A DNA stretch of 64,000 bases from SAR324 cluster bacterium (lineage in GTDB: Bacteria; SAR324; NAC60-12): contig JADFZZ010000004.1 of the NCBI GenBank assembly GCA_015232315.1, positions 1 through 64,000 on the forward strand, written 5' to 3'. The notes under the pieces were generated by a model, which ran no database searches, had not been told where the DNA came from, and worked only from the letters and a program-made list of their open reading frames with translations. Below, piece after piece: positions 50,020 through 59,771 of the stretch. The position numbers and the translations under genes are program-made. Numbering within the stretch: position 1 is the stretch's first letter; the number at the start of each line of letters is the position of its first letter.

Positions 50020-50583
50020 TCAGAAAAGTTTTGATGCCATATCAATGAGGCTTGTTCCACCTGTGAGTAGGGGGCCAAGACTGGGGAGAGCCTTTCCTAC
50101 AACAGAAACCAGAGAAGAAATTCCTTTGCACATTTCTGTATATTGTCCTTTTCCACCTGCGACTACCGCCAGATCAGAATCGCTCAATTCTCCATAAAAA
50201 TCAGGATTTACCGGCATTACCAGATGCAATTGATTTGGAGTGTTGGCATAAATCCTCAATTCTCCGGGAAATCCCAATCCTAATGATTCCTGAACCGCCT
50301 CATGAGGGTTTGACAGCAAGCGTTCACGAAATGCCGCATCGTCAAGAGCCTTACGAGAGACTCTGCCAACCGGATCATCCCCCCACACCGCATCTTTGGC
50401 CTGTGCTTCATCAAGCAGTACAAAATTCATGGTATCCAGCGTATCCTGATGAATCTGGACTTCCATATTCTCAGGCAACGATTGCCCCATTTGTGCCAAC
50501 GCCTCTTTCGGATTGCTGAACAACAGTTCTCTGAATGAAGTATCCGCCCAAGTTTTCTCAATAATTTGTTGATATAGTTCCAT
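50020..50583 (-). CDS. RiPP precursor with tandem NHLP-type leaders
   Basis: 187 residues from ATG 50583, behind AGCAGGTG. It contains two nitrile-hydratase-like leader modules in tandem: residues ~5-59 (WADTSFRELLFSNPKEALAQ ... VQIHQDTLDTMNFVLLDE) and ~72-125 (LDDAAFRERLLSNPHEAVQE ... LRIYANTPNQLHLVMP). A leader-peptidase site ELSDSDLAVVAGG (132-144) follows, ending in Gly-Gly. The predicted 43-residue core (KGQYTEMCKGISSLVSVVGK, then Gly/Ser/Leu-rich to LIDMASKLF) is hydrophobic with a single Cys at 152. NHLP leaders are known from precursors of ribosomally made peptides, which are normally modified and exported by C39-peptidase transporters; none is in the window. Confidence 0.85.
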   Translation of the reverse strand: MELYQQIIEKTWADTSFRELLFSNPKEALAQMGQSLPENMEVQIHQDTLDTMNFVLLDEAQAKDAVWGDDPVGRVSRKALDDAAFRERLLSNPHEAVQESLGLGFPGELRIYANTPNQLHLVMPVNPDFYGELSDSDLAVVAGGKGQYTEMCKGISSLVSVVGKALPSLGPLLTGGTSLIDMASKLF

Positions 50584-50995
50584 AATGCACCTGCTCAAGA
50601 AATGGTTAATGAAGAATACTCAAATATTATTAACCAGAATAATTGCGATTGTCCATGCTCCAATATTAATAATTCATGTCAGCGTCGTGAACTGTCACGA
50701 AGGCTCCATAAAAGACAGTCTGTATTTCAAGAGAAAAGCTGTTTTTATGTTGTTTTTAAGTAACTGAACAGGACTGTGCACTAAAAAACATCAATGTGGT
50801 AAAGTTGCGGATGGCTCATCGTGATGGCGTATAAAGGTATTTTGTGAAGTGACTCCAGATCCATTTGTCTGGCACATCATGATTCAACATTAACTTGAAT
50901 CTATTATTTTGATTGTGCATGTGTATGAACATGAAACTGTTAAAACTTCTCAATCAGCGATGATCACGTTTAGACAAATCAATCCCATGATCCTC
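50584..50995. other. Gene-free region between RiPP precursor and caspase operon
   Basis: 412 bp shared by the divergent RiPP precursor and caspase-like genes; it should contain both promoters. A TATAAA (about 50842) is preceded at a long spacing by TTGCGG, which is weak. Small inverted repeat CGTGA-ACTG-TCACG is present near 50687. No other gene is supported. Confidence 0.4.
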
Positions 50996-52735
50996 ATGAA
51001 TAGATTCAAACAGACCGTTTTTCAAATCGTTTTTCTGATGGGAATGGCACTGGCGTTTGGAAGGACAACATCACATGCCGCAGAAACACGAGGTTTTAAA
51101 ACCGTCATAAAAAACGACAAAGGGCAGGATATTGGATTTTATTCAGGAAGTTATGCGCTTCTGATCGGTGTGAGCGATTATACTGCCGGTTGGCCTGATC
51201 TTGAAAGCATTTCATCAGAACTTGAAGAAGTAGCCGTCTCGCTGAAAGAAAAAGGGTTCAAGGTTGAATTGGTGTTGAATCCAGACAGTCGGCAACTTCC
51301 AAAGGCCTATGAGGACTTTATCAAGAAATATGGCTATGATGTGAATAACCAGTTATTGTTTTATTTTTCTGGTCATGGGTTTACCAGAAATAATGGTTCA
51401 AAAGGCTATCTGGTACCTGCTGACGCACCCAATCCCACTGAAAATGAAAAAGAGTTTTTGCAGAAGGCTCTCAACATGAGCCGGATTTTGAACTGGTCTC
51501 GAGAAATGGAAGCCAAACATGCTTTATTTCTGTTTGACAGTTGTTTTTCTGGAACCATCTTTAAAACAAGAGCGTTGCCCAAGGTTCCTCCCCACATTAC
51601 TGAAGTCACTTCAAAACCCGTAAGACAGTTTATCACGGCAGGAAGCGCTGGCGAAGAAGTTCCGGCCCGCAGTGTTTTTACTCCGGCTTTTGTTCGCTCC
51701 TTGCGTGGAGAAGCTGATGTGAATCGTGATGGATATGTCACGGGAACAGAACTTGGTGTTTATTTGCGGGAAAAAGTCATGAGTTATCAAACCGGACAAA
51801 CCCCGCAATATGGAAAAATACGTGATCCGGAACTGGATGAAGGGGATTTCGTGTTCATAGTGCAGAATGGGGAAATACCAACGACGGTGTCTGCCTCAAC
51901 AGAATTTTCACTGGATGATCTGACTTCGCAGGAAAAGGCTAAATGGGAAAAATATCTCCATGAAATGAAACAGGCACTGGAACAGGTTCAGTTGTATGAA
52001 CAGGAATCTGGGTCGCCAGAACTCAAGGTGATGGCCTGGCAACGGTTTATTGATGCTTATGACAGCAATCATCCATGGTCTGACGAAGATGAAAAGTGGC
52101 GAGAGCACGGAAACCAGCAAAAAATCTGGTGGCAACAACAAATCAGCAATGCTGAAATCACCCTCGCAAATGAAATCTGGACAGAGCCACAAACCGGCAT
52201 GCGTTTCGTGAGGGTGGAAGGTGGACCTTTTTCAGAAAAAACATGGGTTGGGCAACATGAGGTTTCAGAATCACAATGGGAAGAAATTATGGGAAAACTG
52301 CCCGGTGATTCGCACGGAGCCATGCATCCCGTCCAGGTGAAAGACCTTGAATTGATCCATGAGTTTATCCATAAATTAAACCAGTCGCATCAACTGGAAG
52401 GTCCGTTTGAATTAATAAAACAGAAACAGTGGGAATACGTCTGCCGGGAAGGTGGAACCCAAACAGGAATGAGCAATTTCGCAAATCCAAAGAAAGTGAA
52501 TTTCGGGAAAAACAAAGGAATGGTGATGCCCGTGGATTCATTTGAACCGAATGTTCTCAACTTATACAACATGCAGGGTAATGTCGCGGAATGGGTGGAA
52601 GAAGGACTCCTCATGGGTGGAGACTGGATGTCGGCACCCAACGAAGTCCGTTGCGATTCCATAAAAAAAATGAGCGGATTTTTTGAAATGCTGGCTTATG
52701 ATGGTGGCGGATTCAGACTCATCCGAACGCCATAA
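50996..52735 (+). CDS. Exported caspase-like (C14) protein with FGE-sulfatase domain
   Basis: 579 residues from ATG 50996, chosen because it gives a signal peptide (MNRFKQTVFQIVFLMGMALA, then FGRTTSHA); in-frame ATGs at 50960 and 50987 are possible. Residues ~45-270 are a caspase fold: YALLIGVSDYTAGWPDLES, catalytic His in FYFSGHGF (H127) and Cys in LFDSCFSG (C183). The C-terminal ~190 residues are a formylglycine-generating-enzyme/sulfatase-modifying-factor-like domain (MRFVRVEGGPFSEKTWVGQH, MQGNVAEWVEEGLLMGGDW, GGGFRLIRTP), usually a binding or hydroxylase fold. The whole protein would act outside the cytoplasm. It is first in an apparent three-gene operon. Confidence 0.88.
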   Translation: MNRFKQTVFQIVFLMGMALAFGRTTSHAAETRGFKTVIKNDKGQDIGFYSGSYALLIGVSDYTAGWPDLESISSELEEVAVSLKEKGFKVELVLNPDSRQLPKAYEDFIKKYGYDVNNQLLFYFSGHGFTRNNGSKGYLVPADAPNPTENEKEFLQKALNMSRILNWSREMEAKHALFLFDSCFSGTIFKTRALPKVPPHITEVTSKPVRQFITAGSAGEEVPARSVFTPAFVRSLRGEADVNRDGYVTGTELGVYLREKVMSYQTGQTPQYGKIRDPELDEGDFVFIVQNGEIPTTVSASTEFSLDDLTSQEKAKWEKYLHEMKQALEQVQLYEQESGSPELKVMAWQRFIDAYDSNHPWSDEDEKWREHGNQQKIWWQQQISNAEITLANEIWTEPQTGMRFVRVEGGPFSEKTWVGQHEVSESQWEEIMGKLPGDSHGAMHPVQVKDLELIHEFIHKLNQSHQLEGPFELIKQKQWEYVCREGGTQTGMSNFANPKKVNFGKNKGMVMPVDSFEPNVLNLYNMQGNVAEWVEEGLLMGGDWMSAPNEVRCDSIKKMSGFFEMLAYDGGGFRLIRTP

Positions 52736-56119: not shown

Positions 56120-57631
56120 TCAATTTTCCTCTTCAAAGTCTGTTTCATCCTGATTCTCCAGCCAGCGAAGCACATATTTTTTGGCAGTCCGCCGGTCCAG
56201 TTGGGTTTTGCGGGCGACTTCCTCATAATTATTGAATTTTGTATACAACAAGGCGCAATACGCACTCAACACATCCCGTGCGGGTAAATCACCCGACTCA
56301 AACTCAAACAATAATCGCTGTCTCAAATCGCTGGCAACTCGCCGGGTATCCCCACGGTAAGTTTGAGTCATCAAAATCCTGCGAATCGCCTGTTCCACTT
56401 CACGGACATTGCCCGGCCAGTTGTAATCGGGGGGGAGTTGTTTTTTCAGAGTTCCCTTGACAAGATCAAACAGTTCCGGACTTTCCTCATGGGTCAGTTC
56501 CATCAGAAAATGCTGAATCAGGCTGTCCAGTTCATCAGGATGCTCTTTAATCCTGTCATACAGCGATGGCACAATGATCACATCCGAACTGAGCCGATAA
56601 TAAAAATCATCGCGGAACAAGCCTTTTTCACGCAACTGATCCAGCGATTTGTTGGTTGCCACAATCACCCGGCCTGAGAAACGCTGTTTTTCGTGACTGC
56701 CCACTGGATAAAAAAACCGATCTTGCAACACATGCAACAATTTGATCTGGATCGGAATGCTCACCTCACCGATTTCATCCAGAAAAATAGCCCCAAACCG
56801 GTTGCAACGCTTGAACACGCCTTCGTGGGCTTCGATCGCACCAGTGAATGCGCCTTTTTTGTGACCGAACAATTCTGATTCAATCAACTGCTCATGAAAC
56901 TGCGACAGATTGATGGCGGTGAAGACCTTGGAGAAACTTTCGACAAACGCGTTTTTTTTATCATCAAAGGGTATGAATCCCGAACGCCCGATCGCTACAG
57001 CCGCTGTTCCTTTACCGGTTCCGGTATCTCCAAGAATAATGGTCGAAAAATCTTCCATGCGATGATAGAGGTATTTTTCATACAAATGAATATCGTAGGT
57101 GAAGACGTTATTCCACAACTGGCGCCGTAATTGTTTCATCGAAGAACTTTTTCCCAGCAACGCACGATCAATGAAATAATACGCGCGCCGGATCTGGTAA
57201 AACAGTCCAAACAGACGTACTGCGCGTTCATGATCAATCCCGCGTCGTTCCAGTAACGTAAGGATATCCTCACCAAAATTAACCCGGCATGAGACATCAC
57301 CCGCATGGATCTGTTCCTGAATCAAATGGTCAAATTTTTCAATGTTCCGGTAGTACGCTTCAAACAGATACACGCCTTCCATGACATCACGATCTTCTCC
57401 GGAAAAGGACTCCAATGTTCTGAATTGAGGTTGATCCATGACATACAGTCGATGCGTAACGGCATCATTCAGACCTTTGCGAACTTCCGGAGGTGGCGCA
57501 CCACGGGAACAGCCTGAAATTTCAAGCACCAAAGCCCCCCACTCCTCGCTGAATGGGTTTCCGAAGGCGGCTGAGGACACCAGTCTGTAAAATCTGATCT
57601 CTTCTTCACTCAATTTATATTTTCTGATCAT
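56120..57631 (-). CDS. Sigma-54-dependent activator with atypical N-terminus
   Basis: 503 residues from ATG 57631 (a GTG at 57634 is possible). The N-terminal ~195 residues form an unrecognised helical domain without receiver or GAF motifs. The AAA+ domain follows: Walker A ILGDTGTGKGTAAVAIGRSG, the sigma-54 contact loop GAFTGA in FGHKKGAFTGAIEAHEGVFK, FLDEIGEVSIPIQIKLLHVL and NWPGNVREVEQAIRRI. A C-terminal helix-turn-helix (YEEVARKTQLDRRTAKKYVL) should bind DNA. Its start overlaps the stop codon of the PTPS-fold protein, so the activator is co-expressed with the queuosine-type genes. Confidence 0.88.
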   Translation of the reverse strand: MIRKYKLSEEEIRFYRLVSSAAFGNPFSEEWGALVLEISGCSRGAPPPEVRKGLNDAVTHRLYVMDQPQFRTLESFSGEDRDVMEGVYLFEAYYRNIEKFDHLIQEQIHAGDVSCRVNFGEDILTLLERRGIDHERAVRLFGLFYQIRRAYYFIDRALLGKSSSMKQLRRQLWNNVFTYDIHLYEKYLYHRMEDFSTIILGDTGTGKGTAAVAIGRSGFIPFDDKKNAFVESFSKVFTAINLSQFHEQLIESELFGHKKGAFTGAIEAHEGVFKRCNRFGAIFLDEIGEVSIPIQIKLLHVLQDRFFYPVGSHEKQRFSGRVIVATNKSLDQLREKGLFRDDFYYRLSSDVIIVPSLYDRIKEHPDELDSLIQHFLMELTHEESPELFDLVKGTLKKQLPPDYNWPGNVREVEQAIRRILMTQTYRGDTRRVASDLRQRLLFEFESGDLPARDVLSAYCALLYTKFNNYEEVARKTQLDRRTAKKYVLRWLENQDETDFEEEN

Positions 57632-58641
57632 CACGCACCTTTCTGTTTGTTCATCACTCGCAATGACATTCCGGTGGATTCCGTATTCCAGAGATCCACG
57701 CCACTGATTTCCGGTAAATCATGTCTCAGTTTTTCAACCAGCCAGGTCCCGATATCCGCAAGATCTGACGACACCAGTCCATCAACACCATCAAGGGCAC
57801 GATGGTCCAACAGAAAAAACACAGGGGCGAACACATCCTTGATTTCACCAAAGTCGCGAATCCACCCCAAGGCAGGGTTCAGTGTGCCACTAACCCTCAG
57901 TGTGATTTCATAGGTAAATCCCTGATAACTACTATTCCAGGGAACCGCACTGTCCATGCTGAAGGACTTGAAACATTCCCAGACACCATTCCCTGAATAA
58001 GTACTGCCGGCAGTCTGTGTCTCAAACACTGTCACTTCTTCCAGACACGGGATAAGCGGATGCAAGGTGTTCCAAAGCCAGAAGGACAGATTTTCGGAGG
58101 TTGGATTTTCCAGCCCGGGAATCTGATTCAGCAGGGTTTGATTCAATTTTTCCAAGACGGGTTCTGACACGATCTGGATTTCAGCCACGGAAGTGTTTCC
58201 ATGCCATTGAAGTTTCACACCAAAATTATGTCCATGCAGTCTTCCGCATTTATGTCCCGGCGGTACATTCGGTAAAAAATGGGATGAATGCAGGATGGTT
58301 TCAACACATCCATGCATGCCCTGCGCATCCAGAATATATTCAGTTTTGGGAGTGCCAATCAACCTGACCTGGGTGCAGGGAGTCGCCAGATTGTCACGGA
58401 TCCAGTGGACCAACGATGAATCGGTGGGATTGTCCAATCCGGTGGATTCATTCAGCAGAGAGTAGTCCAGAATCGATTGCAACGGATGTAATGTTTCACC
58501 GAGTGCTTTCCAGTGTAACGTTTCAGAGGCTTCTGTTTTCTGTTGAGCCAGTGTCATCCGGAACGAATGACCATGGGTGTGTGAAAACTGTTTCAACTTA
58601 CGAGCCGCTTCAAATCCCAGACGGTAATAATACTGAATCAT
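57631..58641 (-). CDS. Three-module PTPS/QueD-fold protein
   Basis: 336 residues from ATG 58641, behind AAAAGGTC. Three consecutive modules each resemble 6-pyruvoyl-tetrahydropterin synthase/QueD, normally ~120 residues: module 1 (~5-105, HTHGHSF, NPTDSSLVHWI), module 2 (~115-215, SSHFLPN, the Cys in KCGRLHGHNFGVKLQW, PTSENLSFWLWNTL, FETQ) and module 3 (~235-330, GWIRDFGEIKDVF, LLDHRALD, NTES). Module 2 keeps the zinc His and catalytic Cys but lacks LDH; module 3 has D-x-LDH but lacks the zinc His. An active site may thus form between modules. Neighbouring queC supports a 7-deazaguanine (queuosine) role. Confidence 0.82.
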   Translation of the reverse strand: MIQYYYRLGFEAARKLKQFSHTHGHSFRMTLAQQKTEASETLHWKALGETLHPLQSILDYSLLNESTGLDNPTDSSLVHWIRDNLATPCTQVRLIGTPKTEYILDAQGMHGCVETILHSSHFLPNVPPGHKCGRLHGHNFGVKLQWHGNTSVAEIQIVSEPVLEKLNQTLLNQIPGLENPTSENLSFWLWNTLHPLIPCLEEVTVFETQTAGSTYSGNGVWECFKSFSMDSAVPWNSSYQGFTYEITLRVSGTLNPALGWIRDFGEIKDVFAPVFFLLDHRALDGVDGLVSSDLADIGTWLVEKLRHDLPEISGVDLWNTESTGMSLRVMNKQKGA

Positions 58642-58880: not shown

Positions 58881-59537
58881 TCAGGTTCTCGACAATAACG
58901 GATCCGGTATTCCGGCAGTCTCAAAGCCTTTTGCCCGGAGTTGACAGGCAGGACACTCGCCGCATGGGGGAAACTGTCCGTTATAACAGGTATGACTCCA
59001 TGCCAGTGCGGGTAACGCGCCCAGATCACGCGCCAGATAGACCGTTTCAGCCTTGGTGAGCCACATCAGGGGAGTATGGATCGTCATTTGGGTGTCCATG
59101 CCCAGATTGATTGCCAGTTGCATCGCGGTGATAGTGTTTTGTCGACAATCCGGATAACCGCTGTAATCCGTCTGACAGACACCTGTCACCAGATCCGCAA
59201 TGCCATTCTGCCAGGCATAGGCGGCGGCGAAGGTGAGGAAAATCAGATTTCTGCCTGGAACAAAGGTATTGGGAAGGCTATTGGCCGGCACATTTTTTTC
59301 TACAGGTTCAGCCGATGTCAGAGCGTTACCGCCAAGACGCTGAAACGTATTGATTGGTAAAACCTCATTGGGTACATCCGCGAGTTTTGCTATCTTGCGT
59401 GCGCAATCAATTTCAATTCGATGCCGCTGACCATAATCGAAGGTAACCGTTTTTATGGAATCAAACCTGGATTTTGCCCAATACAAACAAACGGTTGAAT
59501 CCTGACCACCTGACAGCACTACCAAAGCTTCACGCAT
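58881..59537 (-). CDS. queC: 7-cyano-7-deazaguanine synthase QueC
   Basis: 218 residues from ATG 59537. The PP-loop [20 protein letters not shown] binds [62 protein letters not shown] follow; zinc Cys lie in [20 protein letters not shown]. QueC converts 7-carboxy-7-deazaguanine to preQ0 in the pathway to queuosine. It is first in a tight operon with a small membrane protein, the PTPS-fold protein and the sigma-54 activator; QueE and QueF are not in the window. Length is normal (~220-230). Confidence 0.93.
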
Positions 59538-59771
59538 AAGTATTCCTGATTTTTTGTTCCTCATGAATCCATTATTCCACCACAAATTTAACAGACCTAA
59601 TATAGAACTGATTCGTGAAAGGCAAGGGTTATTGATGACTGAATTTTATCAGGAAAGGACTTCCTTGTCCTGGAATTCCGTGGTATTAGCACTAAGAAAT
59701 AGTGAACCCATTTAATGGAAATGAGTTCTGTGAAACTGGAGCATAATTTAAACAATTAACAGGAGAGCACT

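Follow-up and report, generated by a model that had tools for sequence, protein, structure and literature searches.

Can a single polypeptide of three fused QueD modules, with the catalytic motifs divided among them, stand in for an enzyme that assembles its active sites from separate subunits? The active site of PTPS enzymes takes its Cys from one subunit and its Asp-His pair from another. That the catalytic triad is intersubunit is stated in the title of Burgisser 1995, as cited in PMC7546909. The question is raised by a gene in the window analysed here, the whole stretch of 64,000 nucleotides from a SAR324 cluster bacterium. For this gene, the original prediction had proposed three fused PTPS/QueD modules that mimic a trimer with one or two working sites, in an arrangement differing from the usual single-domain QueD. 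The gene and its neighbours were the following:

56120..57634, minus strand: sigma-54-activator-like regulator, downstream of queD; 4-nt overlap between its start and the queD stop
57631..58641, minus strand: trimodular QueD/PTPS gene encoding 336 aa, stop codon included in the coordinates; PTPS profile matched in three stretches; top NCBIfam hit TIGR03367
58638..58880, minus strand: CBU_0592-family small membrane protein, encoded between queC and queD with a 4-nt overlap at the queD start
58881..59585, minus strand: queC (7-cyano-7-deazaguanine synthase); TIGR00364, 242 bits against a cut-off of 150

The reading frame of the trimodular queD started with ATG at 58641, ended with a stop codon at 57631–57633 and was co-oriented with queC, which lay two genes upstream. 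The presence of three modules was confirmed with profile searches. The Pfam PTPS profile (PF01242) matched three separate stretches of the 336-aa protein (E=8.5e-37 overall), and in the genome search the modules scored 67.6, 35.9 and 29.1 bits, each exceeding the 22.4-bit cut-off alone. TIGR03367, the QueD equivalog, scored 97 bits as the sum over the three stretches (cut-off 89.25). Apart from the three modules, the PTPS profile matched nothing in the 5.25 Mb genome (G000, estimated 95% complete), and no second QueD was found elsewhere in it. The N-terminal part of the sigma-54-activator-like protein had no confident Pfam match. Rfam gave zero matches in the window and in the trimodular loci; hence, no preQ1 riboswitch is present there. 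The window also encoded an NHLP-leader RiPP precursor-like protein, two stretches of which resembled leaders (50020–50598, minus strand; TIGR03793, 106 bits). A further protein (50909–52735, plus strand) had a caspase-like N-terminal domain (NF047832, below cut-off) and a C-terminal part weakly matching GldK/PvdO-type families.

Catalytic positions were assigned in E. coli QueD numbering (zinc His 16, 31 and 33; Cys27; Asp54; Asp70-His71; Thr84; Glu86; Glu110). They were distributed over the modules as follows:

58321..58641, minus strand: module 1 (residues 1–107), a degenerate T-fold
58462..58467, minus strand: Asp59-Tyr60 of module 1, aligned with the Asp-His dyad; Asp-Tyr in 5/5 trimodular proteins
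57985..58320, minus strand: module 2 (residues 108–219), the zinc/Cys/pterin-pocket half; 43–46% identity to E. coli QueD
58228..58281, minus strand: module 2 His121, Cys132, His136 and His138 (QueD H16, C27, H31 and H33)
58090..58107, minus strand: module 2 NPTSEN (T181 and E183; QueD T84 and E86), from alignments
58018..58023, minus strand: module 2 anchor Glu207-Thr208 (QueD E110 and T111), from alignments
57634..57984, minus strand: module 3 (residues 220–336), the Asp-His half; zinc and Cys loop lost
57838..57855, minus strand: module 3 DFGEIK (residues 263–268; QueD D54-F55)
57802..57807, minus strand: module 3 Asp279-His280 dyad (QueD D70-H71), invariant in module 3 of 5/5 trimodular proteins

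As a whole, the protein contained the three zinc His, the Cys, the Asp-His dyad and the anchor Glu, divided between modules 2 and 3. Module 2 had been predicted to carry zinc His and the catalytic Cys in CGRLHGHNF (residues 132–140) and to lack the LDH dyad. This was borne out: all three zinc His were located there, not the HGH pair alone, and Asn-Gln stood where the dyad would be. The segment CGRLHGH (residues 132–138) corresponds to CxxxHGH, the signature of PTPS-I/QueD (PMC5041015). The ExxHGH motif of the folate-type PTPS-III was absent from module 2, as CGRLHGH has Gly at the Glu position. Also as predicted, module 3 carried DFGEIK and LLDH (residues 277–280) without the zinc His. It was the only module with an intact Asp-His dyad and GWxxDF, and it had neither the Cys loop nor the NPTSE motif nor the anchor Glu. 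Module 1 had Arg14 at the first zinc-His position, no Cys and Asp59-Tyr60, and its HGH was kept.

Full-length orthologues (43–45% identical) were encoded by three further genomes of the window's family, G004, G005 and G010; these correspond to loci L047, L048 and L046, respectively, with the same protein sequences. The trimodular gene was the sole PTPS found in each of these genomes and in G000. In all four SAR324 proteins, the equivalents of H16, C27, E86 and E110 were restricted to module 2, and those of D54 and H71 to module 3. When a distant fifth member (described below) was included, His121, Cys132, His136 and His138 still had invariant counterparts in module 2 throughout the five trimodular proteins. 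Module 1 was degenerate in every trimodular copy (n = 5), with HGH and Asp-Tyr invariant there. Gaps at the first-His position of module 3, seen for two proteins in the larger alignment, were due to alignment placement; the smaller alignment had Val and Leu. None of the five trimodular proteins contained a single complete module, and no relative with complete motifs in each module was seen among the trimodular homologues found. In contrast, 81 of the 83 single-module QueDs compared, mostly from viral contigs, had all ten residues in one chain, in agreement with the predicted difference from the usual enzyme. Since the partition was conserved in five trimodular proteins whilst 81/83 single QueDs were complete, it is neither a family-wide property nor noise.

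Other genomes of the window's family had single PTPS genes. A second family of the same order had single QueDs that were 44–50% identical to module 2, and the viral contigs, as far as examined, had single QueDs only. A scan of genome contigs yielded no match with the window protein as the query and SAR324 matches only with module 3 as the query; the L049 match to module 3 was short and chance-like. No match to the trimodular form was obtained in samples of three other phyla, in scans without positive controls. All three modules are under purifying selection, with rough dN/dS values of ~0.15, 0.14 and 0.07 for modules 1, 2 and 3 (one orthologue pair; dS near saturation). By eye, a stretch of integrase-like, ParA-like and unknown genes was conserved in L046, L047 and L048 (about 2.5–6.5 kb) and had the trimodular queD as its last gene; a glutamate-cysteine-ligase-like gene was located close by.

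When another phylum, that of G056, was scanned for PTPS, a single genome (G310) proved to have three matches within the same frame. The encoded protein (L082:2183–3277, 364 aa) was 33% identical to the window protein (E=1e-52) and collinear with it over most of its length. Its three zinc His and Cys occurred only in module 2 and its intact Asp-His only in module 3, and module 1 had Arg at the first zinc His and Asp-Tyr at the dyad. The protein was less eroded, with Asp54 still present in module 2 and Glu110 in module 3. Its TIGR03367 score was 147 bits, as was that of the L047 orthologue. The gene formed part of an intact queC-queD3-queE operon (QueC: 210 bits, cut-off 150; QueE: TIGR04508, 337 bits, cut-off 240) and so occupies the usual place of queD between queC and queE. 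The host of this contig is uncertain, because G310 has an estimated contamination of 5% and carries single PTPS genes on other contigs; this uncertainty counts against the explanation that we favour below. In the tree, the five first modules clustered, with support of 93 for the reported node and 99 for the branch that divides them from all other sequences, and the five third modules clustered with support of 99. The second modules formed no resolved clade, and the deep module relationships had low support. The simplest reading would be a common trimodular ancestor of all five proteins, and the split between modules 2 and 3 appears to be old and conserved.

An artefact or misassembly was ruled out by the architecture being common to four SAR324 genomes and a fifth genome. 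A pseudogene was ruled out by the open frames and by dN/dS values well below 1 in each module.

QueF was present in all four SAR324 genomes with the trimodular gene. QueC exceeded its cut-off with a long match in G000, G005 and G010, and not clearly in G004. G005 had a queE-queC cluster away from the trimodular queD. Contig 35 of G000 encoded a QueE-like radical SAM protein that best matched QueE families, yet it was below every curated cut-off, and the profile search detected no QueE above cut-off in G004 or G010; both observations count against the explanation that we favour below. An ORF (L052:697–1311) adjoining the QueE-like gene was similar to the RiPP precursor-like protein of the window. 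The assignment to QueD/PTPS-I is based on the profile score above cut-off, the CxxxHGH signature and the queuosine gene context; the predicted activity would be the formation of CPH4 from dihydroneopterin triphosphate.

Structure prediction of the chain with AlphaFold2 yielded a mean pLDDT of 85.7 and a pTM of 0.84 for the window protein, and 85.6 and 0.84 for the L047 orthologue. Both models showed three beta-beta-alpha-alpha-beta-beta repeats with twelve strands, and the modules of the window model were joined by short connections. The Cys loop of module 2 (130–133) had low model confidence. With Foldseek, single modules were superposed on QueD structures (rmsd about 2–3 Å), and with VIA-align, modules 2–3 were superposed on the tandem T-folds of uricase (Z about 10–11). 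Three T-folds are thus predicted with high confidence, whose closure into a barrel is putative.

The protein is probably (roughly 75%) a 6-carboxy-5,6,7,8-tetrahydropterin synthase of the preQ0/queuosine pathway, built as a trimodular covalent pseudo-trimer with one composite module 2/module 3 site. Three QueD T-folds in tandem would form one pseudo-trimeric 12-strand unit. Module 2 would bind zinc on H121, H136 and H138, supply Cys132 and anchor the pterin with T181, E183 and E207, and module 3 would supply Asp279-His280 and Asp263-Phe264. Module 1, its catalytic residues lost, would probably be maintained as a scaffold that closes the barrel. We hypothesize that, in the fused barrel, the pocket of each module is paired with the dyad of the module that follows. 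Site 2-3 would then be intact in both halves, in site 1-2 both pocket and dyad would be broken, and in site 3-1 a partial dyad would meet a broken pocket. Such pairing explains the residue pattern well, since it leaves one whole site and two broken ones; if the pairing order were reversed, each intact half would be set against a broken one. Judged from conservation and from analogy with other tandem T-fold enzymes, the residues of modules 2 and 3 would lie opposite each other in the folded protein. Its oligomeric state, its binding of zinc and its enzyme activity are likewise putative. The proposed single-chain mimic of a trimer is supported, and the partition in all trimodular homologues found fits one site. 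Purifying selection on module 1 (dN/dS about 0.15) is consistent with a scaffold role. The HGH and Asp-Tyr kept in every module 1 are more than a pure scaffold needs and count against this explanation.

The residue partition would fit equally well if the site lay between two chains stacked head-to-head, the module 3 dyad of one chain completing the module 2 pocket of the other. In the PTPS hexamer, trimers meet head-to-head and three adjacent monomers together form each site (PMC7546909). However, a composite site needs no more than two adjacent modules of the same chain and the dimer is an assumption, so we regard this arrangement as unlikely. A reverse order, in which the module 2 pocket is paired with Asp59-Tyr60 of module 1 and the module 3 dyad faces the HGH of module 1, would imply altered chemistry or one weak site, and is less probable again. 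It could account for the invariance of the module 1 Asp-Tyr and HGH in 5/5 proteins, and bimodular QueF also pairs a C-terminal pocket with a motif of the other module. Nevertheless, the sole complete dyad would face a pocket that lacks Cys and the first His, and the sole complete pocket would face a dyad that lacks His. The conservation of both intact halves would be left unexplained, because each would face a broken partner. It is very improbable that the protein is not a QueD but a repurposed T-fold protein, e.g. another pterin enzyme or a regulator: two of its three modules are degenerate and, in the SAR324 relatives, the gene adjoins ParA-like genes and not queC, which counts against the QueD reading, but module 2 has the PTPS-I signature without the PTPS-III motif, the operon of L082 combines the gene with queC and queE, and it is the sole PTPS in genomes that have QueF.

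The composite module 2/module 3 site can be compared with known systems. Single-module QueD (PTPS-I; E. coli 4ntk/3qn0, P. aeruginosa 2oba) resembles the window protein in having a T-fold per module and CxxxHGH, zinc His, Asp-His and anchor Glu in the chain, and it neighbours queC/queE, as the trimodular form does. The window protein differs in its three fused modules, for which one composite site per chain is expected instead of one per module. Uricase has tandem T-folds in one chain, like modules 2–3, but it is an oxidase with two modules, no zinc and about 8% identity. A bimodular PTPS-like protein from another phylum (G055, L018:1078–1893) consists of fused PTPS modules as well, the first without Cys and Asp-His by eye; unlike in the trimodular QueD, there are two modules, the second looks complete, and Cys and dyad are not split. 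Bimodular QueF (V. cholerae, E. coli) shares pathway, fold and split motifs with the trimodular QueD, but it is a nitrile reductase with two modules, no zinc, no canonical tunnel and its pocket in the C-terminal module. In V. cholerae QueF, the partner motif lies in the N-terminal module. This opposite module order, though in an enzyme without a canonical tunnel, counts by analogy against the composite site that we favour. The catalytic motifs of bimodular QueF are split between fused T-folds, with an interdomain site (PMC5372742). Given this published precedent, split motifs are unusual for QueD and not for the T-fold superfamily. The literature searched, of partial coverage, yielded no account of a trimodular QueD.

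The usual QueD, a tRNA-modification enzyme, consists of identical separate subunits with six complete sites, whereas the SAR324 form appears to be one protein of three fused copies. It seems reasonably probable that these proteins form a new lineage of trimodular QueD: a homo-oligomeric enzyme of six sites would have turned into a single-chain pseudo-trimer with exactly one composite site, its other two interfaces would have decayed, and module 1 would perhaps keep a non-catalytic (regulatory or metal-related) role. If this is true, nature would have run the experiment of fusing a symmetric homo-oligomer and cutting its interface active sites to one. The surviving residues would show which module gives which half, making the subunit pairing of PTPS testable through mutations in a single chain. 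The trimodular QueD would then have repeated the route of bimodular QueF, in a neighbouring enzyme of the same pathway.
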